Source: Gonapodya prolifera JEL478 (lineage: Eukaryota > Monoblepharomycota > Monoblepharidomycetes > Monoblepharidales > Gonapodyaceae). Taken from it: a DNA stretch of 64,000 nt. The notes beneath the pieces are model-generated. The model was not told the DNA's origin. It did not search any database and saw only the letters and a program-made list of their open reading frames with translations. Shown in pieces: positions 10,727-63,408 of this stretch. Position numbers and translations under genes: made by a program. Numbering within the stretch: the first letter of the stretch is position 1; each line of letters starts with the position of its first letter. The DNA lies in the NCBI GenBank assembly GCA_001574975.1, contig KQ965732.1:773923-837922 (forward strand), written 5' to 3'.

Positions 10727-13528
10727 ATGCGATCTCCTCTTTTCGCAGCGGCATGCATAGCCCTTGTCTCGCTGACAGCCCGGCCCATCATTGCTCAGTC
10801 CTTCACGATGGCACATCGGGTCTTGGTCCTCACAGTCAATTCTGGTACACCGCCTGAAGGTATGTTTGACAGAGTCAGACTGTCACATCTGTCAAAGCGA
10901 ACGAAATGATTGACTTTTAACTCTTATGCGAACCATTAGCTGGCATTGTACAAGCTCTCCAGTCATACGAGATCCCGTACGATCTTATCACCATCAACCA
11001 GACAGGCCTCGTAGGCAACCTTTCACTTATTGACACTTCAGCGAACGCGTTTCCCAAGTACAGGTACGCTGCGGACCAGCGCTCTCATGCAACCTCAATT
11101 GTCGGTTCCTGATGTTTTGTGCCTCCCGCAACGCAGTCTCATTGTCGTCGCCAGCGCCCAGCTCGCATACAACAATAGCGGTGCATTTACCAGTGCGCTC
11201 ACACCCGCACAGTGGGCCTACGTACGTTACCGCTTCAGAACGTTCATCAAGCATTTCGTTTCGATTGAGCCCATGTCTCATCTTTACAGCTCGAAGACTA
11301 CGAGGCAACGTACCGCGTTCGCCGAGTCTCCATGGACGACTATCCAGGCGCCGCCACAGGAACACAGGTCTACAACACAACGGTCGGAAAGACTGTCCTG
11401 AGCGTGCAGAACATCACTCTGAACGCAACATACGCCAGTGCCGCCGGGGTCCAACCAACAGCAGATGTAGATACCAACGGGTGGGTATTGCGTCTCGGTC
11501 TCTTTTACTGGAGTAACCCTGACTCGTTCAACTTTTCGAACTCTTCACCCCACACCAGTCTGTTCCACACTCCCGCCGTCGTCAGCGCGTCTCTCCCATC
11601 CACTATTTCGTCCGTCGCCCCCGTATTCTGGTACAACCCTTGCCCCCCCGAGTTCCCCGTCACGACCGTCGGGGCCGTGCACGTGACTTACTCCAACTAC
11701 CGCGAGCACATGGCCTTCTTCCTCGCGTTCGGGTCATGGTCCGCCACGTCGTCGCTGCTGAACCACGTCTGGCTGCAATGGGGCACGCGCGGGCTCTACC
11801 AAGGGTTCCGCAGGACGTATGCGCTGGGACAAGTCGACGACCTGTTCCTCAAGACGGAGACGGTCTTCAATTCAGCGCAGACGTATAGGGTCACTCCGGA
11901 GGATATGGCCAATCTTGCCGCCTGGCAAGCGAGCCTCAATCGCCGCCTGCCCCGCGGGTCTGCATTCCGGGTCGAGGTGGCCCTGAACGGGAACGGCATT
12001 CTCGAGGCGGCGGGGTCTGCCGACCTGATCAATATCAATACCGAGTCCACGGTTAACAAGACGTACGTGAAGCCTCTGGGCAGTGGGACGAACAGGTGGC
12101 CGTCGAGCTACACGAGCTCCTGGGTGACGAATTCGACTGGGTTGCTCAAGGACGCGCTGTTTGCGTGGTTTGTCCAAAAGTGAGTGGCGGAGGATGATGG
12201 CGTGCTCTGAAGATGGAACACTGGAGACTGAGCGCGATTTGCTTGTTCGTTGATTTTCAGCAAAACTGCCAACATGGCGCCATTCTCTTGGTTGTCGCAC
12301 ACGTGAGTCTGGTTCTTTTCACATTTCCCTTCAATTTTTCAACCTCGTAACTTGGTACCTCATCGCCCAGCTTCACACACGAAAACCTCGACGACGCCAC
12401 GCAATACGACGTCACTCAAGAAGTCACGCTGAACCAGAAGATGGCCACGGTCCTCGGTCTCACGGGCCAACCCTACTGGTCCTCCAACGGCATGGTGACG
12501 CCCGAGATTTCGGGCGTGTTCAACGGGGACGCATATACGGTATTGACGGCAAACAACATCACGACCATCGTGGGAGACAATTCGAGGTCCCAGTTGGTGC
12601 CCAGCGACATTTACGGGCTTTGGAGGTCCACCAGTGCGTCGTCGAATTATGTTGGGTATGCGGTGATTCCGAGACAACCTACGTGAGTTGCGGATGGCCG
12701 TCTGATCCAAACCTGTGGGACTGATTTTCTGCTCGTACCACACAGGGAGGTGTACTACGACTGCAGTACTGTGGCGGAAGACATTTACCTCTACAACAAC
12801 ATGTCAGTCGCCAACCTTTCTTTGCGAGCATTGCAATTTTTCACCGTCTTTTACAGGTACTTCAACACTTTCGGATATAACTCCACCTGGTCGCAAATTC
12901 TGTCACGGGAGCAGACAAGGCTCACCAGCATGCTCCTTAATCTCCGTCACGACCCCCACATGTGCGTTAATCTCACAACTTCGCCTTCCAAAATCAATTC
13001 TCACCACCCACTCCCTCCACACCACAGGTTCCACCAAGCCAACCTCCGCAACCACGATCTGGCTCGTGTGATAATTAACCGCATCAGTGGACGTTGGGGA
13101 CTGTACGAGCAGTGGTTCGAAACCGTGTTCGCGAGATACAACCAACTCGTCACTTGGCCCGTTGTCAGCTTGAAAATGGACGACCTTGCACAGTTCTATC
13201 GGTACGTGGTGTTTTTGCTCGACTCTACCGCCGTTACCTAATCCCAGAGCTCATCGCCACTAGTGAGAGGGAGGCCCGCACCACCTGCTCAATCTCGACT
13301 TCCTTCACGGTCAGCACGTACCAAGTCACCGGCGTCACCATCAGCACCAGCGGCGCATGCAAAGTTGGCATCACAATTCCCACCAATGTGACGTCCGTCA
13401 ACCCTGCCCACTCGTACGAGCAGCTTGGTAGCGACCCGCTCACGGTGTGGGTCCCCATGACGTCGGGCACTCCGGTCACGATTCCGGTGAATGCGGTGAA
13501 ATGGGGTGATAGACCCGTGGCGATGTAA
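10727..13528 (+). CDS. Secreted Agd3-like polysaccharide deacetylase
   Basis: The product is probably an extracellular deacetylase related to fungal Agd3, which deacetylates cell-wall or biofilm galactosaminogalactan. ATG 10727 begins a signal peptide (MRSPLFAAACIALVSLTA, cleaved near IIAQS). It is followed by a Rossmann-like N-terminal region, a beta-rich domain (exons 11332-12183, with a probable 81-nt intron at 11480-11560), and the catalytic part. The metal-site motif WLSHTFTHENLDD is split by an intron at 12301-12370. Further on come GLTGQPYWSSNGMVTPEISG and NNITTIVGDNSRSQL, both typical of this family. At least eight introns are present, and the stop is at 13526-13528. Many N-x-S/T sites fit secretion. 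The family is often labelled extracellular serine-rich protein in fungi. The substrate is inferred, and assignment is from remembered motifs, so the enzyme class is firmer than the substrate. Confidence 0.8.
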
Positions 13529-15132: not shown

Positions 15133-16565
15133 ATGGTGAGCGCAATCGATGGATGGATGCCTTTTTCGGTGTGCTCACCCCTCTCTTCCCAACCCAACGA
15201 ACACTCCAGCCTTTCGTGAAAGTCGTTAAGAACAAAGCTTACTTCAAGCGGTACCAGGTCAAGTACCGGAGAAGGCGCGGTGAGTGTTCTTCTGGAGTAG
15301 CCGACGCATCGTGGAAGGGAGTCGCGTTGACGTTGGACGTTACGGCATCGTTGGTCGCTCGGATTTCGAAGCCAAATGAAAATGACGCCAACATGACTCC
15401 CCTCCATGGAAGTGCAGGATTCGAATGGAGCTGTGTTGCCTAGGACTGCCTGGATTCCACAGATGGTGCAAGGATCCACACTCGACGATTGATTTTTCGA
15501 TCAACTCTCTTCATACAGAGGGTAAGACCGATTACTACGCCCGCCAGCGTCTCGTCGTCCAGGCCAAGAACAAGTACAACTCGCCCAAGTACCGTCTGGT
15601 TGTCCGTTTCACCAACCGTGACACCATCGTTCAGGTTATCTACGCCAAGATCGAGGTTCGTTCGTCGTCGAACTGTTTCTGCCACTGTTTCCAACTTACC
15701 CTTGACTTGTTTCGCAATGTTAGGGCGACTACGTTCTCTGCTCCGCCTACAGTCATGAGCTCGAGAAGTACGGCATCACTTTCGGTCTCACCAACTGGTC
15801 TGCTGGTACGTTTATCATTCATCCTCGAGCTATGCGTTTTCAAAATCAATTAATCGACTTAATATTGACTCCCAGCCTACGCCACTGGTCTTCTGTGCGC
15901 CCGCCGTCTGCTCAAGAAGCTCGGCCTCGACACCGACTACATCGGCCAGGAGAAGCCCACCGGCGAGCACTTCCAGGTTGAGGAGAACGGTGACAAGCGC
16001 CCCTTCCAATGCTTCCTCGATGTCGGTCTTGCCCGCACCACCAGCGGATCCCGTGTGTTCGCTGCCATGAAGGGCGCCGCCGACGGTGGTCTCCTCATCC
16101 CCCACTCCGAGTCCCGTTTCCCCGGATACGACAGGGAGGCGAAGAAGCTCGACGCTGAGATGCTCAAGAAGTACATCTACGGAGGCCACGTGAAGGAGTA
16201 CATGGAGTACCTCGAGGAGGAAGACGAGGAGGCGTACAAGAAGCAGTTCGCCAAGTACATTGAGAACGACGTCGGCCCTGACGATCTCGAGGAGCTGTAC
16301 AACGACGCCCACGCCAAAATCCGCGAGGACCCCGACCCCGTCCTCAAGGACAAAAAGGAGCTCACGGAGGAGGAGAAGAACAAGCTCAAGAAGTTCAAGC
16401 AGAAGCGGAAGAACCTCAAGGAGAGGAACGACACCGTCAGGCAGAAGTGGGTTGGCGTCCAGTTCGAGCGACGCGTGTATAGATTCATTGACCGCTCTTT
16501 CCATTCGTGTGTTTGCCATTTGCAGGAAGGAGGCCTTCGAGCGCAAACTCGCTGGAGACGAATAA
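15133..16565 (+). CDS. RPL5: 60S ribosomal protein L5 (uL18)
   Basis: This is a large-subunit ribosomal protein that binds 5S rRNA and delivers it with uL5 to the pre-60S particle. Six exons add up exactly to 300 residues: 15133-15135, 15210-15279, 15519-15655, 15724-15805, 15876-16446 and 16526-16565. The first exon is only the ATG; the intron begins at the next base, giving [17 protein letters not shown] after splicing. Hallmarks are [69 protein letters not shown] and the basic tail ending [12 protein letters not shown]. Length and sequence match the eukaryotic family closely. The multiple introns near the 5' end are usual for fungal ribosomal protein genes. Confidence 0.98.
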
Positions 16566-16902
16566 ACGTCTCGCTTGCAGCTCGGGAGGCCCACGGCGGT
16601 GGACGTGTGGTGGGAGGTCTAGTTATCCAGGCGCGCGTTTTGTACCAAGTTGGGAGCGTCTTTTCGCTTGGCACAGAAGGCGGCTCGGTTGCAAATATGA
16701 AAACTGTAATCAAACTCTCGGTTCGGAGGACAGTCCCTCCAAAGTGCCCTTCGGCAGCCGCCCCGCTCCTTAGGTAATTTCGCGCTGAATCGGGCTACTA
16801 TTTCACAGTTTTACGGTCTGCATAGTTCCACGGCGTATCCACACGATGGGTGACTGTGGAGGTGACAAAGCCGAACAATTGCCTGGTGGGTTATTTTTCA
16901 AC
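16566..16902. other. Intergenic region, no gene seen
   Basis: This spans the RPL5 3' side to the ECHDC3-like start. I see nothing beyond probable 3' UTR and promoter sequence. The in-frame ATG at 16846 extends the next gene by 19 residues but is a poorer targeting-peptide start than 16903. Confidence 0.4.
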
Positions 16903-26906: not shown

Positions 26907-29900
26907 ATGCCCGCTGGTGCAAACACGGTGGAATTTGTACGCTGCGAATGGATAAGCCACTTCGTGGACGACAAAAGGCGCCAGATCGCAGCGCCCATAT
27001 ATGCAGTGGATTGGCACCCCTCGGGGACCAAGATCGCAACAGGCGGGACCGGTGAGTGCACACACAACCGGCAAATGCGGTGAAGGGAGTGTCTGGCTTA
27101 GGAAGTGAGGATCGGGCAGGCATTTCGTGTCGTTGGGAATGGAACTTTGGAACAGTAGGAGTGATTGGACACCTACATATGTCCCTGGACATCTATATCG
27201 CTTTCTTTCGACTGAAAATTTCCAATACGAGTCGATCTTGGGCAGTGACCGAGTTTCGCGAATGAAGTCGGAGAAGAAGAAGCTGACATTCACTTTCACT
27301 CTCCGCACCCCTTCTCCATGGATGGAACTCTCCCGCACACGAAAGGACCGGACTCGGTGAAAGTATGGAACGCCGCCCCACTTCTGGATCCGGATTCTGA
27401 ATCAAACGTGGAGGTGCCGAAGCATCTAACGACTCTGTCGACTCACATTGGTGAGAGCTGCCTTCTTCTTCCCCTGCCGCGATCACAAATTCGTCCTAAT
27501 TTATACGTCCGGATGATCACCACACTCACATCGTCCCTGACAATTTCCGTTATTGCCAGGAAACGCCCTCTGCGTGCGATGGTCGCCAGGGCGTGGGACT
27601 TACCTTGCTTCTGGCTCCGACGATAAACTCATCATTCTGTATACAAGAGAAACGTGAGCTTTGAAGTTCTTGCATGTGGCGTCGTCAACATTTAACTAAC
27701 GCTTACCCAATAGCTCAGACGGTGGCCCCTCTCGCGTCTTCGGCTCCAGCTCCTCCGCACCTCAAGTGGAGCGATACGTAACTGCACACGTTCTGAGAGG
27801 GCACGCGCTGGGTGAGTCTCTCAGTCCGCTCGTGTTCCCACATCTAGCACCTCCAAAAATGCACCTTTAACAGACGTCTTCGACGTTTCCTGGTCACACG
27901 ACGCAACCCTTCTCGCCTCATCATCCGCTGACTGCACAACGCGCATCTGGAGCGCGCCTTCGTTCGCGTGCGTGCGCGTCTTGGACACCACTCTCCTCCT
28001 TAAAGAGCCCACAGTTTCAGGCGGCACGAACCCACCCGCAACTCCGGCCAAGTCAAAGGACAAGGAAGATCCGCTGGGTTTCGTGAAAGGCGTCGCATGG
28101 GACCCGGTGGGGAAGTACCTCGCTGTGCAAGTGAGTGTTTTGGTCCATTCTCGGTGTCTCAATGTTGAAGACACCTGACCTTGTCCACTGTTCAGTCCGA
28201 CGATAAATCCGTCGTTATTTGGTCTGTGACCGGTGGTCCTAACGATTGGAGATCGGAGAGACGAATACGTGACCCCTATCAGGGATCTATGCAGGCTCCC
28301 TGGTTCTCGCGACTGAGGCAAGCTCCACCTCAAACCTACCCTGTCACCCTCCCAGGCATTTATATGATCTCGCCTTTATTCGTAGTTGGTCCCCAGACGG
28401 TACCGTCCTCGCCACTGCGGGTGGCCACAACGCCCGAATGCCCTGCGTGCCACTGTTGATGCGTAGCAACGACTGGAAAGCGGACATTTGGCTCGTGGGG
28501 CACATGAAGCCTGTAGAAGTTGCCGTACGTCCGAGTCCTTTTGCGTGGGCCGCCTTGGGGATTCTTACTGTGGACGTTCTCGATAACGCAGAAATTCAAC
28601 CCTCACTTGTTCCGCCCGATGCCCGGGGCTGCACCAAACGGCGACGCTAACGGGACATCCTCCACCGCTCCGACTCCAGAGGGAAACAGCGAACCCTATG
28701 CGATCTGCGCGACGGCTTCAGAGGACGGGTCTGTTGCAATTTGGAGGAGCGGGCGCGCTAGACCCGTGGTGGCTGTAACAGCTCTGTTTAAGGGAACCAT
28801 CCATGACCTCTCATGGTGAGCTGTCGTTTGAAGTTGCTGGGAAGAAGAATATTTGCGACTGGAACAGTACCGCTGCCAATTGTGAAGGTCTCCCGACGGA
28901 CTCAACCTGGCTGCAGTCGGCCACGACGGTACGTGTGCGTCGCTTCGACTGGACCCTTCCATTCTCGGAGAAGCTGTAGAAGAATCCGAAGTTCTCGAAC
29001 GGATGGCCAAGTTTGGGAGGAGAGGGCCAGGTGCTCGAATCTCCGAAACGCCAGGGCAAGTGCTAAGAGAGGAGAAGGCCAAGGAATTGGACGCCCCGGC
29101 GCTGGTGTCTGGAAATGCGTCAACTCCCAAGAAGGCACCGCAACCACGCGTTCCACCTCCCGAAGGTACATCGGCATCCTCGGCCGGAGGACGGGTCGAT
29201 GCTGGGTCAGCTGCCGGGCATCCTGTGACATACACAAAAGAAGGAAGGAAGCGGATACAACCAACTTTCATTCGTAGCCTTACAGTTTCAACCGAAGAAG
29301 AGCAACCCGAGGTGAGTACTTTCAAAGTGCAAAGACTTGAACTTTTGCCAATCGTCGAGCTCTTGTCTATCGTAGGATGTCCCGCAATCGAGCACTGTAG
29401 TCGCGATGACCAACAGCGTGGACCAACTTGGAATCCTCGATAGCAATCGTGTTCCCGACACAGGGAAACGAAAAGTCGCGGATATGGACATTGATGTTGA
29501 CTCTGAACCGAAGCGGGTCAAGATCGAAACTATTCGTGTTCCGGTAGGCCTTTTTTGCTGGAATGTACATCGTCGTGATAGCGCTGTATGAATCATTCAT
29601 TACAGGTCGTCGCCCCGGCTGTGAACCTCCCCGCCCCACCCATCCAACGGCGAATAATGTGTCGCTTTGCCCCCCGTGGGCCAGCGGCAGGTACTGCAAC
29701 GGACCAAGTTAACAACGTGGAAGTATTGAACCCGTCCCTCGATAAAGGTTTGTTTGTATGTTTCTCTGTCATAGTCATGTGTCTCAAGACATTTCCTCGC
29801 AGGAATGTGCCAAGTCCGCTGTATGCCGGTACAAACCACCAAGGATGCTGTAGGTGGACTCCCTTTGTGGGAGGACAACCTACCCCATGCGGGGACGCAC

Positions 29901-31155
29901 GTGGCAACAGGAGATTTTTTCGTCGCTGTGGCGACCGTTGACGGCGGCCTCTGGGCGTATTCCGTAGCGGGCAGAAGGTTTGTGCGATATTTTTTTGGTG
30001 ACGAAGTAAGCTAAGGGACGCATTTGAAATTGCTTCGTCAGAATCCTTCCCCCTATTGTATTGGAGTCGAGACCGGTATTCTTGGATGCTTCAAAGGACG
30101 TGGTTATGGTAGTAACACAAAACGGAGGGTTATACACGTGGTGCGTTGTGAATGGATTCGTCGATGGCCTTGGCTTTGCTGACACGGAGGGTCGTTGCAG
30201 GAATGTCCACAAGCGACGATGTATCCTTGATGGTGTCTCCGTCACTCCGGTTTTGACAAATGCATCCCGACTTTCGACACATAACAATGCAATCACTTAC
30301 CGTCGTACAAATGCTTCAGGCCCTGACGCCCGCATAGAAATAGCAAAGTTGATGAGTCCCGGACCGGTTCCCGTCGTTGCAACGTCCGACTTATCAGCTT
30401 ACGCGTATGACTCCGCACTCGCGACGTGGATTCGAGTCGCCGAGCGGCCGGCCGCTGAGCGTGCATTGGTCAAATCTTCGGGGAGGGTTCAGGGAATCGG
30501 CTCCGACTTGGCGGAGATTGCTTCAGAGATCGCATCTCGAAACGCGCAAGCAGGTCGTGGCGACCTTGACGAAGACGAGGAACGGGGTGGTCCTTTAGGG
30601 AAAGCAAGAGAGATTGTGGAGAACGCTCGCAAAGCACGGGCCGGCGCAAGTTCACGTGGTTGGGTTGGTGCATCACGCATGACTTTTGGAATGGTGGAGG
30701 TAAGATAGTATGTGTCGCAATTTGGTGGCTCGTTTTAAACTTGTTGTACGTGTTCGCGACAGAACTACCTTGCGTCCGCCCGATCTCTTCAATCTCCGCA
30801 CGATTATCTCTACTGGCTACGAGAATATGCGCGTAAGCTTGCGGAGACGGTCAATTTAGAGAAGGTGGAAGAGGTCCTCAATGAGTTGGCAGAAGGTTTG
30901 GATGGAGAATCGGGTGATACTGATTTCGCAGACGATGATGAAATATGGGGAAACGCGGTGAAGCAAATCTTACCAATTTTATGTGAGTGTAGATCCTTGG
31001 GAGACATCGCTTGCCCTTACTGAATCGTTTGTTGCAACCCATTCTTGGTAACACTTCCGGGAATAAAAGCCAAACAACGCGCCTACGAACGTAAAATATC
31101 CGCCTTTATTGAGGCGAAGAGTTTGAGCCCAATAGTCCCCGGCATAGACGTATGA
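26907..31155 (+). CDS. HIR1/HIRA: HIRA-family histone H3.3 chaperone
   Basis: This WD-repeat subunit of the HIR/HIRA complex deposits H3-H4 independently of replication. ATG 26907 is followed within 30 residues by the first WD blade (IYAVDWHPSGTKIATGG). Further blades include DGTLPHTKGPDSVKVWNA, SPGRGTYLASGSDDKLIIL, VSWSHDATLLASSSADCTTR, WDPVGKYLAVQ with SDDKSVVIWSV, and ICATASEDGSVAIWRSGRAR. The B-domain-like segment is EGRKRIQPTFIRSLTVSTEE near 29245. The C-terminal Hira domain follows with ATGDFFVAVATVDGGLWAYS, VMVVTQNGGLYTW and MTFGMVEVR. An acidic helical end reaches the stop at 31155. About 15 short introns interrupt the frame. The order WD, B-domain, Hira domain is diagnostic. A single gene here appears to play both the yeast Hir1 and Hir2 roles, but that needs the whole genome. 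Confidence 0.92.
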
Positions 31156-36086: not shown

Positions 36087-39000
36087 ATGTCATTTTTTTC
36101 ATCGTTGCTTGGCGTTCCGTCGGGAGGAAGCGCGCGCGCTGGCGGCGCTGGAGGCGCTGCTGCTCAAGACCCCAGAACAGTGGTGGAACGCTTGGTGGAC
36201 CGGGTTGCACATGCCCAGCTTATGGAAGACCGCAGAGCAGGAGTGCTTGGACTCAAGGGCATGGCGAGGGACTATAAACTTGTGAGTTGAACCGTGGGAT
36301 GGCGGCGAATGGGGCCCATGTGCCTGGTGATGGATTCTTGGAGGGTAATCGAGGGCAATAAATGGACACTATTTGGGAGTGCGGACTGTACAGGACAGAA
36401 ATTGTGCTATGAGAAGTTTGGGACACCGGGAAGATCATCCAAACGGTCGATGGCAACATGTCGAACGGGATGCGGGAGATTGGTCCAACCGCAACCACTT
36501 TGGTTTCTGCGAATGAAAAGCTGACAGGTTTGACCGGAAGTGGACTGAGTTGGAATCGTCTATAGCCTGCGCGCCCTTCCATGACGTCTCTACAGTCGCT
36601 AACGTTTGTCCCTTTGCTTGATATTGACACCTGCCTCTTCAGGAAGTCGGAACATTAGGTCTCGTGCCCTTAGCCGAGCTCGTCAAGTCTGAAGAGACCG
36701 ATGTGGACACTCTGAAAGCGGTTCTGGAGACCCTCAACATATTGTGCACTCCCGAAGATGTTGCACCGGCGAAGGGAGACGGAACACCAGAGGATCTGGG
36801 AGTTCAGGTGGGTTGAAATCACAACATTTGGTGTGTCACGGGTGAGCATCCTGAAAGGAGGAGGAATGTCCGGGTCGTGGATCGGGTGGGCGTATTCGCC
36901 TAAGAGATTGAGCTTGGGATGAAGTAACCATCAAGAGGAAAACACAAACGAAGTGACCGCTCAACTTCCAATTACAGTTAACCGAAATCCTCATCAAAGA
37001 TCCCACCACCGTCTCCGCACTTCTCTCAGTACTTTCCGAACCCGATTTTTATGTGCGGTATCAGTCCGTCGAGCTCCTGGGTACTCTACTCGCAAATAGC
37101 CCGGAGGCTCTGCAGCTCGGTATTCTTTCTGCTCCCGGCGGAGTGGGCAGACTGATGGATCTCTTGGAAGATAAGAGAGAGGCAATCCGGAATGGTGAGC
37201 TCATCACCATTGAATGAGCCATGGCAACACTAAATCTTCGGAAACAGCGGGTCTCCTTCTTTTGATCACACTCACCCACTCAAACGCGGATATCCAAAAG
37301 ATTATTGCTTTCGAGAATGCGTTCGACCGACTAATTGATATCATTTTGGAAGAGGGTGCCACGGAAGGTGGAATTGTTGTTCAAGATTGTTTGCAGCTTA
37401 TGGTGAACCTCCTCCGATATAACACAAGCAATCTGGTCAGTCACGATGCGTGTCTCATGAGTACATGCCATGAGTGCTGAATCCCTTTGCTCTACACAGA
37501 CCCTGTTTCGTGAATCGGGCATCATCAGTCAACTCCCTCAACTCCTGTTGTCGCGTCCGTCTCCCAATCTTCCACCTTCGGCATCATTCCCCGAGCTAGT
37601 TCCTCTCTCGTCCGATCTCGTGGAGTGGACTGACCAGAAAACCGTCAATGCCATTCTTGCGCTGGAACTTGTCCGAATTTTGGTTGTGCCAAACTCGCCC
37701 AACACTCCCGGAAATCAGCTTGTCATGAGTCAGTCGATTCTTCCGGCAGTAGTGGAACTTGCTGTTTTGGGGCACAGTCCCGTGAGGGTTCGAATACAAG
37801 TGAGCGCACTGGTGTTTTCGATCAGAATCCTCGTTCGAACCGCCACCGTTTTATCCAGTCGCTCTATGCCATGGCGGATCTTATTCGCGGATGTCAACCA
37901 AATCAGGATCAGTTTGCAAAGACTGTCGTTCGATCACGACCATTATCGAACGTCGCACGGGCTCACCCATCGTCTCCTGTTCAAATACCCCCTAAGCCTG
38001 CATTGCTTGTTACCATCGAAGCGTCGGTTCAACCACCACCCTCGATTGAAGAAGACCATGCGCGCAAGTCGAGAGCGGCGCAAACAGCTGACGAGTTTGC
38101 AGTCCGAACTGCGTCCGCGTACGCTGTCCAGGTAAATCATTGAAATTCTACACCATACGCTATTGCAGCATCTAACCCTGCACGAAGTGTTACCTTCATA
38201 ACAATCGCGATGGACAAATCGCTGTTGCCGCCACTTTGAATCCGCCTCCCGCTGACAACCCGGATGGTCCCGCTTCAAATGGGTCTTCTCTGCCATCAAA
38301 CGATAGTCCTCACTCTGCGGGGTCACTTCTGGTGGAAGCGCTTTTGGATTGGCGAGGCGCGCGGAAGGACCCTTTCCGATCCTGGTTCGCAGCCGTGGAA
38401 CTAGGGCACGTTGCTAGAAAGAACGAGTCCTCCAAAGAGCTCCTAAGTGATGCTACTGTTAGCGACGACAGCAGTGGTGAGGCCGGGCGTGGGGTGCCAA
38501 GTCGTCTTGTATTAAACTATTCTCACGGCTTTTCCTGCAGATGAACCAATATTGCTTCTGCATAAACTTTTCCTGACAGTAATTACTGCCGCTCGGGAGC
38601 AACTGGATGTGCGAGTGCAATGCGGTCTTTACGCATTGATCTGCACATGGCTCTTTGGGTATCCTAAAGGAATTAAGATGTTTTTGGAAGAGGGGATGTA
38701 CCTGCAGTTTGTGAGTCGAATTCGCGTGGTTGACTGGTGGTGTGGGGTGTGAGTTGATGCACTTCTTGCCGATTCAGCTTATTGAACAAATTAAGCAATC
38801 ATCGAATATCGATCCCTTGGTGCAGGGACTAGCTGCTTACCTCCTGGGCATTTGCTTGGAATTCAATGATGATTCCCAGCCTTCGTTCTCTCGTGCGTCG
38901 CTGCAATCGCTTGTGTCAACTCGCGTGGGAGCCGACCTCTATTCCAGCCGATTGGACCGTTTGCGGGAGTCCAAAGCGTTTAACAAAGCGAATCTCATGA

Positions 39001-39713
39001 TGCAAAGCCATGGCGAGGTGGACTCGAAGGGGTTGCCTGAGCTTTATTTTGATTATCCTTTCGTCGATATGTTCAAAACGAATTTCGGTACGTCAATTGA
39101 CAAAAGTGGTATCAACTGAATTCCTCCAACTGTCAGTTTCGTCTTCAGAGATTATTTCCAGAGCCGCAGTTTCGAGTGGCCCAAGGTCCAAGGCCCGCTC
39201 GACGGAGCTAAGTGGGTATTGGTGCAGAGACTTGAAGTGTTGTCTGCGTGGGACCTGATGTCAAACGCATTTCATCCTTCAGCTGATGACGCGTCGAATC
39301 CCATCGTTGCGAAGTACCGCGACACAATTTCCAGACAGGAAGCAGAAATAGCTTCGCTGCGCAAATCGCTGCAAGAAGCAGAGACACGCTTAGCAGAGCA
39401 AGATCGCACCATGCGGGACGTAACGGCTCGAGCAGCCCAAATGGATGCGGCTTTGAGGGATGCAGAATCTCGACTCCAACGTTTGCCGTCCCCCTCAACC
39501 AATGGTTCTGGCACCAACGGTACTGGACAGCCCGCCTTATGGAGCAGAATAGCGCAACTGGAGTCGGAGCTGCAGGATAAATCCTCGAGGCTTGATGAAC
39601 AGTCGAGAGAGATGGATGATCTCCTCGTGTGTCTCGCTGACGCTGATATGGCTGCAAAGGAAATGAAAAAGCGGCTCCGGGAATTGGGCGATGATGTACC
39701 GGAGGATGATTAG
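36087..39713 (+). CDS. USO1: Vesicle tethering factor Uso1/p115
   Basis: This golgin-type tether acts in ER-to-Golgi vesicle docking with Ypt1/Rab1. ATG 36087 gives MSFFSSLLGVPSGGSARAGG. The armadillo-like head follows: VVERLVDRVAHAQLMEDRRA, VLGLKGMARDYKL, EVGTLGLVPLAELVKSEETD, PDFYVRYQSVELLGTLLANS, AGLLLLITLTHSNADIQKII, GGIVVQDCLQLMVNLLRYNT and, later, ALICTWLFGYPKGIKMFLEE. The tail from about 39280 is coiled coil (KYRDTISRQEAEIASLRKSL) and ends acidic (ELGDDVPEDD), as in p115. The coiled tail is only about 140 residues, nearer to animal p115 and much shorter than yeast Uso1. Introns lie throughout the head; the first is about 360 nt (36282-36642). It ends at 39713, 184 bp before the J-protein start codon. 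Confidence 0.93.
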
Positions 39714-42564: not shown

Positions 42565-44504
42565 ATGAGTGGGCAGGCGGAGATCGCATCGTGGTCGCCG
42601 GACGCCATCGGAGACTTGCACGGAAAGGTTCGGTGCTAGACGCGGCCATGTGGAGCATTATGGCGACTCACCTCGGAACCCTGTTTCCATTCGCCATTTT
42701 CTTTCGATATCAAACTGGTCGTGCGTCATCGTCGTATTGCAGACCGCGATTGTCACTGGTGCGAACGTAAGTTACGTGCTGACTGATGGTTTGTCCGACA
42801 TTCACGTGCGTTCCACCTGCACCCTCCTTCCATTCACGCGTCAGATCGGTCTCGGAAAAGAAATCGCACGCTCCCTTGCATCCCACGGTGCTCGCACGAT
42901 TCTTGCAGTCAGGGATGTCCAGAAGGGCAAAGTGGCGGCGGACGATATCAAAGCCACAGCGGGGCCTGACGCGCAGGTGGAGGTCGTTCAGGTCGACCTT
43001 GCGTCACTGAAATCGGTCGATGAGTTTGCGAAGGAGTTCAGGGAGAAGAACGACAGATTGGATGTTCTTGTCTGCAATGCTGGTAGGTATATTGGAAATG
43101 GGAATGGATCAACAGTGGAGGGCCTGTGGACTGCTTATGAGCGTCTCTGGGTGGACAATCTACTCAGAATGGATTGTATGCCTGGGGCGAATTACATACA
43201 GTCCGAGGAGGTCCGCGGGCGGTTGCAAAACACTTGGTAGGATATGAATGAGGAGGGAATCGGAAAATCGGAGGCGAAGACAATCGGGCTGGAAGCACTA
43301 TGCCATTTTGTGGAATGCATTTGCAGTTCACACCCGTTGGCGACTCCGTTCGTGGATTATGTTTGCCCCCCGTTCTCAATGAGCTCACGTCACCCAACCG
43401 CCCGTTTTTGTAACCAGGCGTCATGGCACTCCCAGAACGCCAAGTCACCAAAGACGGCTTCGAAATGCAGATCGGGTATGTCTCTCCCTTCTCGGACGAA
43501 CCTCTCCCGGAGTCACCCACTGCCAATTCGACATCCCCACCAGCGTCAACCACATCGCCCACTTCGCCCTCGTCCGCCACCTCTTCCCGCTCCTCACTGC
43601 CACGCCCGCCTCGCGCATCGTACACCAGTCCTCCTCCATGTCCTACGTTCCCGGCGCCAAGTACCCCGCCTCGTGGACCGCGGACGACATTAATTGCGTG
43701 GGGAAGTACGATAAAATCGCTCAGTACCAGTTCAGCAAGTTGGCCAATGTCGCGTTCGCGAAAGAGACGGAGCGCAGGGTCGTGGAAAAGGGGCTGGGAC
43801 AGCCGAGGAGTGTCGTTGTGGTGAGTTTTCTTTGGTGGGTGGATGGCTGTTGATGATGGATCGGGATCGGGGCCAAATTTTGAGTGATGGAAGGTGTTTT
43901 GAAGGGTCAGAAGTCGTGTTAGATGGGTGGTTAAGACTGAGGTTCTTCTGATCTGCTTCTCACTCTTTGTGTTCCGGTAATCCTATTCCCTTCTCCCATC
44001 CCCCATGCAATACCCCTTAGCACCCTGGCTACGTGGTTGGCCAGTTGCAGGAGAAGAGTGCAGGGGTAAGCACACCGACGGCATGTGTTGTTACGTGACA
44101 AATATGTCGTTAATATGTTGCGTCACTCCCCCAATCCTCTACTCTAGAGCATTTTTGAGCGCGGTTTCTTTAACCTCACCAAGTTCCTGCCTGGCGCGTC
44201 GCAAACTTACGCCAACGGCGCGCTCCCGGCCGTCTTTGCGGCCACGTCACCCCTTGCCAAGGGCGGTTTCTTTTACGGGCCAAAAGGATTCTACCATGGT
44301 TGGTAACATGTCGTATTTTTTCACACCAACCCATCCGCCCAAACTCAACTGCGCCCCCGGTTTCTATTCACCTTAGGCGTCGTTGGTGCGGGCGGTGTCC
44401 AACAGATTGACCCCCACCCGAACCCGCTTGCGGAGGACAAAACAATGTGGCGAAAGTTATGGGAGGCCACGGAGGCCCTGGTTGGATTCAAGTTTGACAT
44501 TTAA
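42565..44504 (+). CDS. Short-chain dehydrogenase/reductase, retinol-dehydrogenase-like
   Basis: This NAD(P)-dependent oxidoreductase belongs to the RDH/WWOX-like classical SDRs. Exon 1 is 42565-42627 (MSGQAEIASWSPDAIGDLHG). A 24-nt microexon at 42743-42766 encodes TAIVTGAN. Exon 3 starts at 42845 with IGLGKEIARSLASHGARTI, so the TGxxxGxG nucleotide site is split by an intron. Other motifs are VEVVQVDLASLKSVDEFAKE, LDVLVCNAG, GFEMQIG then VNHIAHFALVRHLFPLL, catalytic Ser in SSSMSYVPGAKY, and YQFSK (YxxxK). The C-terminal part is GGFFYGPKGFYH, ending GFKFDI at 44504. The first donor (GTTCGG) is unusual, so the start could be revised. It is convergent with the redox-fusion gene (157 bp between stops). 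Substrate is unknown. Confidence 0.88.
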
Positions 44505-44660: not shown

Positions 44661-47600
44661 TTACGGAAGAACCATCACACAGTCACTGTAGTTCAAGGCC
44701 GTGAGGGCGTCAATGATCTGCTCATTGAGTGCGTGGTTACCTGACACCACAATGCGGGTTTCTTCCGAGGGCTGCGGGTTTTCGTTCTCGCTCACCGCGG
44801 ACAGGAGCGGTGCGTTTGGTTTCATTGAGACGTTGCTACTCGAGCGCCGTCGGTTTCCTGTGGGATTGAAGTGTACAATGTGTGAGAAGGAAATAAGGTT
44901 GGTGGGTTGCCAAACGATCAAATTTCAGGCCCGGACGTCCGTACCCGCAGAAGCGACATTCAGAGATGTTTTGAACACCTTTGGTGGTGGGGGTAAATTG
45001 GGTGCCAGGACCTTTTCATCGATAGTTTCATGGATGGCGCCGTACCAGGAAGGATTGGTGCCGGTGACACGGCGAGCAATCCATTTGATGGAGAGAGCGG
45101 GGCCCAGAGTCTCCTGGAAGGTATCCAGCGTGCTTTTTCCGACAATATCATGCTCTGTCTCGAAAATCGCGGTGAGCCAGAGCTTAAATGCGGGGGAACC
45201 ATCTTCGCGACGAGGGCCGTTCCTTTCATAGTACTACCTCGACCAAGATAATTTTAACGTTTGTAAGAAAAGGACGAAAGTTGGCACCCACGTCAATCAG
45301 CTGCATCATTGGTGTGATGCCGATTCCGGATGATACCATTCCAACATTTCCAAAACAAAGAGTCGGATGCAACATGTTGAGCAATACAGGGTTCCGTCCG
45401 TCCTCCCCGCTCCGCATGAACTTAACACGCAGGGTGCTTCCCACGTCAAGTTTTTCAAGAAGAGGTGTGAACTGCCCATTGATGCGAATGCGAACAATGA
45501 AGGGTATGGAGCCTTTGCAGACGGTCTTTAAAGGAGTGTAAGGTCGCTCAATCAAATGACCATCGCTTGAAGTCAACTGCAGAGACAGATGTTCGCCGGG
45601 AGCAAGCTTGACTTCATCTTCAAGTTTTGGCAGTCCCAAAGAGAAATAGTAGACCTTTGAGAGCGATGTGGGTGCACTGATGAGCTTCTTTTCCTTTATC
45701 GGCAGCAGTCTGTATGCGTGATCTAGTAACTGGATCAACGGCACATCGCTTGTAGCAAAGGACGGCGATCTCGACATTCGTCCAGTTTCATCGGCAAATG
45801 ATTTCGTTTTGAGGACCGCGATGGTCGGGTTCTCTGATCCCAGAACGCCAGCATCAGAGACTGTTTTGTTCAGCCCCTTTATGCGACCGCAAGCGAGACC
45901 CTTGAGCCTTTCATCGATGGTTGAGGTTGAGGTTGTTCAGAGAGACATTAACGATTGTAAGATCATCACTTTCACTCACTGGAACTCGGCGACACGGGAA
46001 TGGTTGTGTATACGACCAACCGAAGCCGCCTCTTCGCCAGTGAAAAATGGGGTACAATCGGTTCCGATGACGCTTTTGAGAATTTTCACACCGCCTGGAT
46101 GGTGGTTCATCCAATCGTTCGAAGCGATGTTGTAGACAACATCTCGAATGACGAGGTATTGTTTTCCTTGCGCTATTTGGTCATTGAACTCTTTCCAGGT
46201 CATTTCAACCAGCTTGGCAATAACCGGGTCGACGGCTGTTTTTAACTTGTGCTTGTTGAGCTCGTTATCGTCTTCAAAGCTTGAAGCTCTTCCTAGGCGC
46301 TTGTACATAACATGGCGCTTGCTAAACATGAACATGAAAGACGGCACAGAAACCACAGAGGCAACGTAGAGGGCTTGAGCGGCAAAAATCTCGGCGCGAG
46401 AGGCTACGAACGACTTGGTAAGCAGATCCGTGACACCAATGTATCCATTGGAGAGAGCAAGAAGGTATGATCCGTATCCAATGAATCTGTTAAAGCACAA
46501 AGGTTTACAGAGGGCAGGTTACGTCGCTTTCAAGTATCTCAAGTAAGCCCAGTGACCTACATGTGCGTAGCTCTGATGTACGGCTGGCTGCGCGCAAGGA
46601 ATTCACCCAGCCGGGCGATATTGACGTAGTGCACAATCGAATAACCGCTCAATATCGATGCTGTGGTGATCCCCAAGAGTCCAAGCCCAATATTTGGGTG
46701 AATGCTGAGATCGCCATGCGCAAGTTTCCCGGAAATCGCGAGCTGAGATAATTGGTTCGTTGGCGTGGGAAGTGAATGGGCATGCAATGTACCTTGCACT
46801 CACCGCGGCTGAAATGAAAACTTCGGTGTAAATAAAGGCGCAAACCTTCTCGTGGGTCTCGAGCCACTTTGAATAAAGGAACGACTTCAAACCAGCCTCA
46901 AACAACTTGCAGAATCTTGCTTACGTTGGAGTAGGTCGATGAATTTCTCGCCACGAAAATAGCGTAGGGCATCAAAATCCCAAAGCATAGCAACATCAAC
47001 ACTAGACAGATTTCACGTGAGCAGAGTCGAATGAAAGAAACTTTTTGTAACATACCTCCATGAATAATCTGCAATGTCGGGATAATAGACCCCTCTCCGC
47101 GAGAGTCTGATATGTATGTGCTAAAGAAGTCCAAATCCACTTTGCCTTTGTTTGGTCCATGGTACGCCAAGGAGCCTGCCGTTTGTGACCATGCGTATCT
47201 GCAAAACAGTAAGCCGGGAACATGTGAGCGGGGACGCAACGGTAAAGACGAGTTTCGACTCACGTTACCGTTGTTGTACCAGAAACTATGTCATGGTCGT
47301 TTGGATCATTCGTTTGCAGTTTACGAGAGAATGTAATGACTCTTTTGTAAGTTTGGTCGGCTTTCGTTGAGGATATGTCCGCGAAGTTTTCCACGCTGTA
47401 TGAGCCACCCGCGTCAATGTCGATAGTCGGTGTGGTGAAGGAGGTGGAAATACGGTCGGTGATCCCTCCGGCGCCATTGTTGAGATCGGGCTCATACGCG
47501 TAGATATCTTGGGATGCCATCCCTGACCCGATTCCAAAGGCAAACCAACCCAAAGTCCCGGCAGACATCTCAAAATCAATGTAGCCAGCAGATGCCCGAA

Positions 47601-48740
47601 CGTTCCAGCGCAGTAAAATGTTGCTCCCCAACGTCACGGATTTCCACGAGCCGTCGATTTGAACGCTCAAGGCTGCGCCCACTGATGTGCTGAGCGGGCG
47701 TACTCGTGATGTTGAGTCCCCCACCACCGTGACCGAGTTTGCGACGCTCAATGTCGCTCCACGCTCAAGTAGCTTCTGATACGCAGCTGTAAAGTCAGAG
47801 AAGAACAAACTGGCGTTTTTGGCATACTCCAGGGTAATGCTCTGGTAAGCCGGATCTGCCCAGAGTGCGTAATCCGAGACAAGCATCATCTTAGTGTTGT
47901 CTGTGTTGTTGTATTGTGTCTTGCCATTGGGGTTGACGATCAGTGACCAGTTAGAGTTCGCAAGCAATGTGAAAAACTCGTTTGTGAAACGCAAAGGATT
48001 GTTGGTCCAGGGTCTGGTCGAAAGTTGATAGCCATCTGTTTCAGCTAGCTTGTCAATCAGGTAGTGTTCGTGTGCTCACCCAACGTAACCGCTTCTGTCG
48101 TAATGGCATCTCCCCAGCGCGTGACCGCCTCCAATGACAGCGACTGTCTCGCGATCGGTGAGTCCAATGCGAGTAAACGTCTTGCGAACTTGGGTCGAAT
48201 TGAATGCTCCTGTTGGGAGCCTCCCAGCGCTCATGCTTGCGTTGTACTCCCCGGTTTTGTAATCAGTCCGGCCGCATCGATAAGGTACTATAGGACCGCC
48301 ACTTGAATGCAGATGATTAGCGATCGGGCTCGGATGACCCTCACGGGCAACGTTCACTCATACCTCTCATATACCGCCACCGTGCCCGCAAATGCCCAGA
48401 AGTCAGCGGTCGAGATCGCTGGATAGTTCTCTTTGAGAAGCTCCATCGCATCGATACAAGTCTGGAGTGAGACGTGCCCGCCACTGGGAGGAACGAGCTT
48501 CAAAGTCGCCTTGGAGCCTCCGCTGCCATCGATAATACTGTAGCTGCCGGCATCGACCCAAGCCAATCTGACAAGGTAAGGCCCCCAGCCGGCCGCAACC
48601 ATCCCAGCGAGCTGGTTGCGCAGATCCATCCAGTCTGAGTCAGCGAGCCCGCACTTGGTCGCCGCATCGGTGGTCGGGGCAGCGAGAAGAAGAGCGGTAG
48701 TGACGAGTGCGAGTGCGATCGCCCAGTGCGTGCGATGCAT
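44661..48740 (-). CDS. Secreted peroxidase-like / DOMON / cytochrome b561 / cytochrome b5 / b5-reductase fusion
   Basis: Eleven exons join in phase into 1,141 residues: 48740-48364, 48301-48080, 48013-47264, 47198-47056, 47001-46925, 46866-46804, 46742-46561, 46486-45980, 45907-45238, 45182-44945 and 44857-44661. Residues 1-26 are a signal peptide. A class-I-type heme peroxidase follows to about 290, with RLAWVDAG (Arg58, Trp61, Val62 in place of the distal His) and GGGHALGRCH (proximal His186). DOMON is about 315-465 (GWFAFGIGSGMASQDIYAYE, FSRKLQTNDPNDHD). Cytochrome b561 follows (HGVLMLLCFGILMPYAIF, a THE segment, HPNIGLGLLGI, IVHYVNIARLG), giving four candidate heme ligands in five or six helices. 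Cytochrome b5 (HHPGG, then HNHSRVAEF) and b5 reductase (ERPYTPL, SGIGITPMMQL) form the cytosolic end; the usual CGPPP motif reads VSGNHA. Inferred role: one-chain electron transfer from cytosolic NAD(P)H through the membrane to an outer heme site. Confidence 0.93.
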
Positions 48741-51680: not shown

Positions 51681-54139
51681 TCAAAGAGTCGCGCGTACGT
51701 AATCCCTCACCCGCTTTTCGATTCCTTCAAGTGGTAATGCGCCACCACCAAGAACTTACGTGGACAAGGGGTCAAAGAAATTCACGTAACGAGAAACCCA
51801 TGGCGGCCGCTCACCAGCTTCGTGGAAATCACGAATGTCATATTTAGAACCGAGTTCAGTCTGCGCGAGGTTCCGAAGTTCGAGCAGTTTTATTTCGCCA
51901 ATCTTGTACGCAAGCGCTTGGCCTGGAAACACCATGTAGCGCTCGCTGAAGACGCAGAAGGAACCAATGTTATCCTATCAGTGCCTCGAACGAGCACTCC
52001 CAAACTCACACTTCAGCAGTGATATCTGCAGCCCCCATGGCGCTATGCTGTGTAAAGTACTCGATCGCTTGCTCCCGGGTCCAGGCAAGCTTTGGTGAGT
52101 GCAGGCCAGAATCAACAACAAGTCGTATGGCACGCATCTTGTGGTGGATGCAACATTAGGTTGTTGATAGAAGCGACCGTCGTTCCTTTCTGACGCACCA
52201 TCTCCGTCACCAACCGTCCAAATACTTGGGCCTTGTCTTGATAGAAGCCCATTTCGATGCCAAGCTTCTCGCTGTACAAGCCCCACCCTTCTATGAACCC
52301 GACGCAGAAGCCCTGGGGATTTTTGCGAACACGCGGGAGGTTCGACGATTCTTGCGAAATCCCGACTTGCAAGTGGTGACCCGGTATAGCCTCGTGAAGA
52401 GCAACGGCCTCCATCTGCAAGTGCGTTAAGGCGTGAGCATACCAAGCGGTTCACGAAAAGGTGCGGTCTCACAATGTAGGTGGGACGGTTTTCCGGAAGG
52501 TAAGTATTTGCTAAGTAGTGACGGATTGTTAGGATCACGAATTGAAGTCATGCATTTGAAAAGAAACATACCGTAAAAAATTGCTGGACGGGTGCTGAAA
52601 GCGATTGTTCAAAAGAGGAACGGCGCGCCCGAGTCCAAGGAAACTCACCCGTCGGGTGCCGCAGGGTAGTAGATGGCGGGGGGTGCATTCTTCTCACGAA
52701 AAGGCTCCACGGGTCTCAACTCGAAATCGGCCTTGGGCATCCGGTGGAAGAAGCGCGGAACAATGGATCGGGCTCTGTCACGTCGTGTGCGTCAAAGTTT
52801 TTCTCGTACATAAGGCTTGGTGGTTGCAACTTACTGTTCAAGAATAGCATTGTAACCGTTCAAGATGGCCTCGCCGTCCTTCGGAGCGTACTTCTTTTCG
52901 GCTCTGACAGCCTCAAGAAACTCTCGCACGGGCATGTCCCCGGGATAGCCCAGCTCCGTTCTCATGGACTCGATCTCTCCCGTGATGCGCTCCACCTCTG
53001 TTAGACCAAGGTCGTGCACTTGGTCGGGGGAAAGGGCAACTGACGTGAAGTGATGAATCGCCTTGGCGTACACGTCCAATCCATCGTGCCACCCGGAAAT
53101 TCCCGAGGAAGAGCGTGCGTGTGGTAAGTAAGATGTCTCCAAAAAGTCACGGAGTCGTTTGTAAGCCGGTTGGACAAAGTCTGCGATAATAGACTCGAGC
53201 TCGGTGATGGCGGCGCTCTCGCTCGCAGGAATGTGTCCCTTAATGGCAGGCAGGTAGAACGGGGTATCTTCCGCTTTTCGTGGCGTGCCATCTACAGCGA
53301 GGTATTGCGATTCGCATTGCTTGATAATTGCCTTGATGGAGACGGCTGGAAGGGTGTGGTCTTTCTCGACGCTCTTTGCCAACACCACTTCAATTTGAGA
53401 CACTTGAATCGGCCAGCCGCGGAGGCGAGAGTTGTAGTCCGCGACATCTTGGGAGATGTCAGACGGTCGGAACGGGTGGAATGTAGACAGCTGGGGCAGG
53501 TCGAGGTGGGGTCCAAAGACTTGAGAATGCAACACATTCAGAGCATTTCTTTGTCGAGGAACACCGGGTGCACCTACGTTGAGTGATAGGGACATCGTGG
53601 TAGTAGCCGGCAACTTTCTGGCTCAAGATGAGCATATTCGACAGGAAAGAGTGGTTGTCACGCTCTTCATCTGGAAGTTTATCTGCAGAGGATCGTCAAA
53701 GCGCTTTTAAAACTAGACCGCTTGTATTTTTGCTCCGCTCTCGATGGACTCACCGAGTGGAATCGATGCAAGCTCGTCGAGGAGCTGATTCGACATATCC
53801 GAGACAAACTTGAAGGCTTCGAAGCTGATGAAATACGACATAAAACAAGCGATCACTTTGTTCGCGAGGGCATAGGAAAATCACCTCAAATCCGCGAGCT
53901 TGTCATTGAACCTGTAATCGCCAAGCACTATGTTGTCAGAAAACAAGAGCATGTTAATCGCCGCCGGCTTCCCGATGCAAGCCAAGCGCTACCATACTTG
54001 TAGCTCCAACGGGCTCCGCGACGGACTGCAAATCCCACGCGCGCGCTGCGATCGTCCAGAGCTTCTTCACATCCTCGTTTGTCTCGTACGAGGCTGGGAG
54101 CGTGGGTTCGATGCTGGTAGGGGGCAGTTCGTGCACCAT
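51681..54139 (-). CDS. DUF885-family metallopeptidase
   Basis: This is a zinc-peptidase-like protein of the DUF885 family. ATG 54139 begins MVHELPPTSIEPTLPASYET. The body reads FEAFKFVSDMSNQLLDELAS, DVADYNSRLRGWPIQVSQIE, PAYKRLRDFLETSYLPHARS, YAKAIHHFTSVALSPDQVHD, LGLTEVERITGEIESMRTEL. The active-site motif is ALHEAIPGHHLQ (HExxxGHH), about 52395-52360, followed by GFIEGWGLYSEKLGIEMGFY with the family's E-G-W signature. The C-terminal part is FPGQALAYKIGEIKLLELRK, ending LEGIEKRVRDYVRATL at 51681. All key metal-site residues are present, so an active enzyme is likely. There is no clear signal peptide at the chosen start, so it may be cytosolic. Roughly nine introns occur. It is convergent with the unknown repeat-module gene, with 64 bp between stops. 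Confidence 0.87.
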
Positions 54140-62513: not shown

Positions 62514-63408
62514 TTAAATGAACCCTGCATCGACTCTAAACTCCTGTGCAGTGCAAGCGCGGCTGTCATCGCTCGCCAGGTACAGAACCATGTTTGCGAT
62601 GTCCTGGGGAAGCACCTCCAACTGCAAGCATTGAGCAGCGTTGATACTAGCAACTGCCTCCGGTGTCAGCCAAAGCTTCTTCTGTCGCTCCGTGGTGACG
62701 CAACCGGGGGTGACGGTGTTGATTCTGATTTTGTCCTTCCCAAGAGGCCTGGCGAGCCCACGCGTGAGACCGTCGGTTGAGCTCTTCGCGACAGCATAGC
62801 AAACGTAGTCTCCGGTCTTTGATTGCCACCCGACCGAGCCCAAGTTGATGATGGAGCCACCACCGAGTCGTTTCATTCCGGGTACAACGGATTGGATGGT
62901 GAAGGTCGCCGGGCGCTGGTTGATTGCGATGCGGTTGTCGTAGTACTCGGGCGTGACGTCTTCAAGTTTGTGTCTGTCGTCGTTTGCCTAACGCGGAAGT
63001 ACGGCGGAAGTACGAGTCGTACTTAGAGACCTGGGATGGTTGGAGCGATTGAAAGGACAACACAACTCACGACGTTGTTCACAAGCACATGAAAGTCGCC
63101 CAAATCAGAGCTGGCCTCACGGATCGCGGTTTGAAGCGCCTGAATATCTGTCACATCAACCTTCTTGAACCAAGGCCGCGGGGAAAGGCGATCACAGAGA
63201 GCGTGACCCTCTGCCTCGGCAATATCGATGAAGGCCACCTTGGCACCCTGAGCGGCGAAAGACTCAACGATGGCAGCGCCTACGCAAGGAACAATTGACT
63301 TCCGGGACAGTCCGAGATACGGGAGTTCACGATCTTACCGATTCCGGTAGCACCCCCCGTGATGAAGACGCGACGGTCGCGCAAAGACGGATATGAAGAT
63401 GAAGTCAT
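62514..63408 (-). CDS. Short-chain dehydrogenase/reductase (classical, sugar/polyol-type candidate)
   Basis: This is a classical SDR of about 250 residues. ATG 63408 starts MTSSSYPSLRDRRVFITGGA, TGIG, with the nucleotide site split by an intron at about 63338-63281. It continues AAIVESFAAQGAKVAFIDIA, FHVLVNNV, then DVTPEYYDNRIAINQRPATF, GGGSIINLGSVGWQSKTGDY (catalytic Ser), YAVAKSS (YxxxK), INTVTPGCVTTERQKKLWLT and the end MVLYLASDDSRACTAQEFRV, DAGFI at 62514. All SDR catalytic residues are present. It is divergent from a sugar-transporter start codon 509 bp away, which hints at a role in sugar or polyol oxidation, but that is inference from one neighbour. Confidence 0.9.

Follow-up and report, generated by a model that had tools for sequence, protein, structure and literature searches.

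CYBDOM proteins, in which a DOMON domain lies ahead of a b561 membrane core, are described as ubiquitous and poorly characterised, and one of them, plant HYP1, draws electrons from cytosolic ascorbate and passes them to ferric or cupric ions outside the cell (PMC10784544). Here we describe a gene on the minus strand of a 64,000-nucleotide stretch of the Gonapodya prolifera JEL478 assembly GCA_001574975.1 (contig KQ965732.1, positions 773,923 to 837,922; hereafter the window) that encodes, in one chain, a signal peptide, a class I peroxidase-like domain, a DOMON domain, a b561 core, a cytochrome b5 domain and a b5-reductase-like FAD/NAD module. Matches to Pfam profiles and PDB sequences bear out this order of domains, which had been proposed in a preliminary description of the window. 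The product is, in our judgement, probably a CYBDOM-type electron carrier of the plasma membrane (or another secretory membrane) that has a built-in NAD(P)H reductase and carries a pseudo-peroxidase on the outside. The gene is real and unusual, and its altered peroxidase site and missing ascorbate residues are two findings that go beyond the preliminary description. The domains are as follows, with Pfam E-values for the whole protein unless marked otherwise:

48663..48740, minus strand: translation start and predicted signal peptide, residues 1-26 (cleavage point judged by eye)
47815..48590, minus strand: class I peroxidase-like domain, residues 51-266, exons 1-3 (PF00141, E 6e-29)
47159..47625, minus strand: DOMON domain, residues 330-463 (PF03351, E 4.1e-14 over 330-453)
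46321..47062, minus strand: b561 core and fifth helix, residues 496-660 (PF03188, E 2.2e-4 for the region alone; hydropathy)
45859..46200, minus strand: cytochrome b5 domain, residues 701-790 (PF00173, E 1.8e-8; 4.3e-10 alone)
44661..45732, minus strand: b5-reductase-like FAD and NAD lobes, residues 833-1140 (PF00970, E 1.5e-10)

The literature drawn on here consists of passages of PMC4232752, PMC10691727, PMC3591440, PMC10784544, PMC12285341, PMC9358470 and PMC8874372, and what follows on described systems refers to those passages. Like the CYBDOMs (e.g., plant HYP1 and CRR, insect CG8399 and human SDR2), the present protein has the Met and His of an outer DOMON domain and the four histidines of b561, and it shares a five-helix layout with HYP1 as modelled; unlike them, it adds peroxidase, b5 and reductase domains, none of which is described for CYBDOMs in these passages, where the insect members carry a reeler domain. 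In oomycetes and Naegleria, DOMON ferric reductases likewise set an outer DOMON on a membrane reductase, with a ferric reductase domain instead of b561, and the passage describing them mentions neither b5 nor peroxidase (PMC3591440). DUOX also combines an outer peroxidase-like domain, membrane hemes and an inner reductase in one chain, but its peroxidase-like domain is of the PF03098 family, its core is a ferric reductase and it bears EF-hands (PMC3591440). As for the class I peroxidases, the CcPs on record in 2014 consisted of a single domain, and WSC domains occur in some secreted peroxidases of the hybrid B type (PMC4232752). The claim that no protein with the whole chain has been described fits the open-access literature searched, which omits most subscription journals and in which we recognised none; it does not reach to eukaryotic sequence databases, which lay outside the scope and in which the architecture may already be deposited uncommented.

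The profile search proposed in the preliminary description for the spliced protein recovered peroxidase, DOMON, Cyt-b5 and FAD_binding_6 above cut-off, with Cyt_b561 and NAD_binding_1 staying below threshold (see below). Chance open reading frames were rejected as the source of the domains by these E-values. Structure models of exon 3 alone and exon 8 alone had mean pLDDT of 34.7 and 38.3, respectively, and were discarded.

The DOMON domain and the b561 core

By motif position, Met365 and His463 are candidate DOMON heme ligands, matching in place the Met and His ligands of CYBDOM proteins and of cellobiose dehydrogenase (PMC10691727, PMC10784544). The DOMON domain is followed in the same chain by the b561 core, which keeps all four heme histidines (His496, His528, His559 and His604, here H1 to H4). 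Searched against PDB sequences, the DOMON-b561 part gave no matches at E <= 10. In Dcytb and AtCytb561-B, basic residues at H2-7, H2-3 and H4-7 are described as holding cytosolic ascorbate; the corresponding residues are Tyr521, Leu525 and Gln597, so that none of the three is kept, unlike in HYP1, which uses cytosolic ascorbate. Among five ascorbate-near positions in the insect CG8399 proteins, only the Arg at H4-7 is described as fully kept, and their Arg at H3+21 and basic residue at H1+23 are Ile580 and Ser519 here. Shared features include the small residue Gly608 at H4+4 and Trp524 at H2-4, a tryptophan kept by the insect CYBDOMs (CG8399). The absence of the ascorbate basic residues fits a supply of electrons from the fused b5 and reductase domains instead, and it weakens the case for cytosolic ascorbate.

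The cytochrome b5 and reductase modules

The Pfam Cyt-b5 match ends at residue 755, and the candidate heme ligands are His734, in an HPGG motif, together with His765 or His767. The best PDB match of this part is CYB5R4 (E 0.001), itself a b5-reductase fusion; the present protein likewise holds both modules in one chain, as do such b5 reductases, but unlike CYB5R4 it joins them to a transmembrane b561 core. Among PDB entries, the reductase part best matches b5 reductases (e.g., 2eix, E 2.2e-10), and the RxYT FAD motif and the GxGxxP motif are present as RPYT at residue 895 and GIGITP at residue 968. Judged by eye, the NAD lobe also contains a long Ser/Asn-rich stretch (about residues 1072-1108; 44760-44957, minus strand) that extends across intron 10 and precedes the last strand.

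The peroxidase-like domain and its altered distal site

The best PDB sequence match of the peroxidase part is 7opt (E 8.8e-51), the T. cruzi APx-CcP ascorbate peroxidase (PMC9358470); yeast CcP entries also match, and identity over the aligned domain is 42% to the T. cruzi row and 41% to the yeast row. Queries of viral contigs with the peroxidase-DOMON part and with a three-row peroxidase alignment gave 11 and 7 pattern stretches, respectively, without a relative, and a single-sequence query of prokaryotic contigs gave 26 stretches, again without one; the peroxidase alignment query yielded 30 relatives among 63 prokaryotic stretches. Open frames of 705-761 aa, a length that we take to be that of KatG, are found at 25 of these 30 loci, the other five having 224-587 aa. 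Together with T. cruzi and yeast, the 30 KatG-like loci make up 32 comparators, of which just two are eukaryotic. The loci were fetched with two patterns, one ending at the distal Trp beside the His column (the His itself not being required), and so are not a random sample. Three residues of the query are needed for the comparison:

48555..48557, minus strand: codon of Val62, at the distal histidine position (His in 32/32 comparators)
48474..48476, minus strand: codon of His89, at the distal asparagine position (Asn in 32/32 comparators)
48121..48123, minus strand: codon of His186, the proximal heme ligand by alignment

The Val62/His89 arrangement thus occurs in none of the 32 comparator rows, and RLAWH is present at all 30 prokaryotic loci. 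The rest of the site resembles the class I peroxidases (CcP, APx and the APx-CcP hybrids): the proximal triad of His186, Trp202 and Asp247 is complete, and the distal Arg and distal Trp are kept. Gaps were reported in the column counts, which include all 30 prokaryotic loci, and account for the rows lacking the proximal His, Trp or Asp (present in 29, 28 and 28 of 30, respectively). An extra Gly ahead of the proximal His gives a spacing like that of KatG. The distal and proximal residues of these columns are the same as those described for the T. cruzi APx-CcP site (PMC9358470). The yeast row is PDB 2v2e, which carries an Arg at the place where N184R is described as an engineered change (PMC9358470), so we take the yeast Arg opposite Arg195 to be non-natural.

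By family and proximal His-Trp-Asp, as far as sequence goes, the domain belongs with the class I heme peroxidases, from which it differs in having Val and His in place of the distal His and Asn, in being fused and in being probably secreted. The investigated members of the superfamily are described as having a catalytic distal histidine, and peroxidase-like domains without both histidines are mentioned in the same source (PMC4232752); the present domain differs from the latter in keeping the proximal His186. A Leishmania pseudoperoxidase is also mentioned (PMC12285341). With Val62 and His89 replacing the distal His-Asn pair, standard peroxidase catalysis is doubtful: we predict that the domain probably binds heme, with peroxide cleavage of the standard kind unlikely, and the Val/His exchange may represent a relocated distal base. 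The suggestion that the chain feeds a peroxidase site loses ground accordingly.

A tree of 30 rows (27 KatG, T. cruzi, yeast and the query; three of the 30 loci were too short and omitted) separates the three non-KatG rows at 100/100. The query has a branch length of 3.47, and its pairing with yeast is weak (85/51) under thin sampling; we draw from the tree only that the domain appears nearer the eukaryotic rows and fast evolving.

A proposed self-contained outward electron path and its alternatives

From the domain order and the kept residues we infer both heme loading and an outward direction of flow. The preliminary description had proposed the path from NAD(P)H to an outer heme for the same order of domains, and this remains the natural reading of one gene so arranged. 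Electrons would pass from NAD(P)H through FAD to the b5 heme, from there to the cytosolic b561 heme (His528/His604), across to the outer b561 heme (His496/His559), then to the DOMON heme (Met365/His463), and the peroxidase-like heme (His186) may follow as a last station. In this scheme cytosolic ascorbate would give way, as donor, to the tethered b5 and reductase. Given that the distal His-Asn pair is lost and the heme-binding side kept, the outermost domain would provide an outer heme at which an external acceptor (a metal chelate, oxygen, nitric oxide or peroxide) is reduced or bound, and most likely is not a normal cytochrome c or ascorbate peroxidase. The predicted topology, modelled on that of CYBDOM proteins, puts the peroxidase-like and DOMON domains outside and the b5 and reductase domains in the cytosol. 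A hydrophobic segment at residues 6-24 (Kyte-Doolittle 1.75) resembles a signal peptide, and segments 497-515, 531-549, 562-580 and 638-656 pass the Kyte-Doolittle threshold of 1.3. Covalent attachment of donor and terminal heme would set the direction in which electrons flow and bring the whole path within one protein for study, and the altered distal pocket is a natural experiment on a peroxidase heme deprived of its usual catalytic pair.

Several observations weigh against this interpretation. The Cytochrom_B561 profile reaches only 16.9 bits (E 0.0079) in the whole protein against a cut-off of 23, and 21.9 bits (E 2.2e-4, profile positions 1-131 of 137) with the region alone, still 1.1 bits short; NAD_binding_1 scores 14.7 bits (E 0.05) against a cut-off of 22, and 19.4 bits (E 1.7e-3) with its region alone, likewise below cut-off. 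The helix expected at about residues 604-627, around His604, falls below the hydropathy threshold of 1.3. H1+7, a small residue widely kept in b561 proteins, is Cys503, and H3 and H4 are 45 residues apart, versus 36 in HYP1 as counted from the residue numbers given in PMC10784544, which makes the register near H4 uncertain; Arg588, Arg595 and Arg601 lie in that very region. The usual C-terminal motif of the NAD lobe of b5 reductases is CGP, and here SGN stands at residue 1114, so the reductase may be weak. Sequons do not distinguish the two sides of the membrane, with five in residues 27-490 and four in 661-1140. Finally, no relative with the whole domain order was found among viral contigs, prokaryotic contigs or PDB entries.

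The best-surviving alternative is a plain ferric/cupric reductase of the CYBDOM type with a fused reductase, with electrons leaving at the DOMON heme and a peroxidase-like domain that is either a degenerate passenger or a module for binding or folding. HYP1 sets the precedent for such substrates, peroxidase-like domains lacking functional histidines have been described (PMC4232752), and the lost distal pair and the long branch in the small tree would suit a domain in decay; against this, the retained proximal His, Trp and Asp and distal Arg and Trp are more than one would expect to survive in a decaying domain, and we regard this alternative as a serious though somewhat doubtful one.

Another alternative is a working surface peroxidase, with NAD(P)H electrons delivered to a ferryl heme and His89 acting as the relocated distal base. 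The Asn and His of the CcP distal site touch each other, so that the exchange of His-Asn for Val-His alters a pair of contacting positions reciprocally, and the tryptophan on the route by which electrons enter CcP is retained (Trp202). However, the Val/His arrangement appears in no comparator row, and a catalytic distal His is general among described members (PMC4232752), which leaves a working peroxidase unlikely.

A generator of superoxide or hydrogen peroxide in the manner of DUOX, passing electrons to oxygen at the outer heme, is less likely still. The shared layout of outer peroxidase-like domain, heme-bearing membrane core and inner FAD/NAD reductase (PMC3591440) speaks for it, but the b561 core and the ferric reductase domain are separate Pfam families, and the membrane part alone gave no match to the ferric reductase domain of DUOX/NOX at E <= 10, where only b561 (2.2e-4) and YrhC (1.8) were returned. 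Returning to the single-chain carrier that we prefer, its boldest form would be a self-powered b561, independent of ascorbate, with its own NAD(P)H-b5 reductase and a peroxidase heme whose distal His has moved to the Asn position: a surface enzyme that draws on NAD(P)H and acts on peroxide, oxygen or nitric oxide, and a convergent counterpart of DUOX built from unrelated parts. We consider this version improbable as it stands. The DUOX-like layout of the chain would represent convergent assembly.

Gene model and the join between cytochrome b5 and reductase

The gene runs from an ATG at 48740 to a stop ending at 44661, and the codon immediately 5' of the ATG is an in-frame stop. Its 11 exons splice into one frame of 3,423 nt, or 1,140 residues plus stop, and its ten introns, of 54-87 nt, are all GT-AG; the preliminary description had the same bounds, exon number and intron type, with a length greater by one codon (3,426 nt and 1,141 residues).

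48740-48364, 48301-48080, 48013-47264 and 47198-47056, minus strand: exons 1-4
47001-46925, 46866-46804, 46742-46561 and 46486-45980, minus strand: exons 5-8
45907-45292, 45233-44945 and 44857-44661, minus strand: exons 9-11
45908..45979, minus strand: intron 8, with a GTGAGT donor; exon 9 is coding-like 5' of its first in-frame Met

Splice sites were picked partly by the resulting protein and partly by eye, so the family fit at the junctions depends in part on how the model was chosen. The view that this is one gene is upheld by the continuous frame, by domain matches that span exon junctions and by three of the four domain joins each lying within a single exon: peroxidase-DOMON in exon 3, which holds the peroxidase end and nearly the whole DOMON match, DOMON-b561 in exon 4 and b561-b5 in exon 8. 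The exception is the b5-reductase join, where intron 8 is the sole intron between two domains, the other nine lying inside domains; those that flank the three single-exon joins interrupt domains whose family matches cover them whole.

Scored with a codon table trained without them, residues 774-817, which lie 5' of Met818, have a coding score of 0.153 per codon, and the other two frames have -0.233 and -0.289. The maximum of the intergenic control was 0.119 (200 overlapping windows from one 240-nt stretch), and 50 overlapping held-out blocks of the gene had a mean of 0.126 and a minimum of -0.043, with the coding frame exceeding the other two same-strand frames in 49 of them. This coding bias supports intron 8 and hence the presence of b5 and reductase in one chain. 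The weakest alternative, two genes in which a peroxidase-DOMON-b561-b5 product terminates immediately past exon 8 and the reductase has its own start at Met818, draws on readthrough of exon 8 (...VAEFQ, then stop), a weak-looking intron 8 acceptor and the in-frame position of Met818 upstream of the FAD domain, but is very unlikely in view of the coding-like residues 774-817, of a GTGAGT donor also used by introns 3 and 6 and of a splice that takes the b5 profile to 72 of 74 positions (+1.2 bits), the last only in a copy with six insertion residues removed, since in the native sequence the match stops before the splice and does not discriminate (39.9 vs 40.0 bits).

Neighbouring genes

No paralogue was found elsewhere in the window, where only the gene itself matched at E < 0.1. 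A Pfam scan of 30 hand-picked pieces of open reading frames identified several neighbours. At 11269-13238 on the plus strand lies an Agd3-like deacetylase with CBM87 (pieces at 8.8e-26, 5.1e-19, 4.9e-27 and 1e-20), of what we take to be a fungal family of cell-surface polysaccharide enzymes. It is followed on the same strand by a piece of a ribosomal protein L5 (uL18) gene (15869-16774, 3.9e-30), by pieces of a HIRA-like histone chaperone (27816-30705; WD40 4.9e-8, Hira domain 4e-20 and a CAF1B/HIR1 propeller at 2.7e-8, below cut-off) and by pieces of a Uso1/p115 vesicle tether (38176-39710; 5e-11, 1.1e-30 and 8.5e-11). The Agd3-like, L5 and Uso1 genes are in keeping with a fungal source. On the minus strand are a DUF885 protein (52834-53622, 2.4e-35), of a family named as bacterial in an otherwise fungal-looking window, and a short-chain dehydrogenase piece (62517-62987, adh_short_C2 6.2e-33). 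Convergent with the fusion gene, at 43383-44504 on the plus strand, is a gene that looks short-chain dehydrogenase-like by eye, with neither of the two pieces tested matching Pfam.

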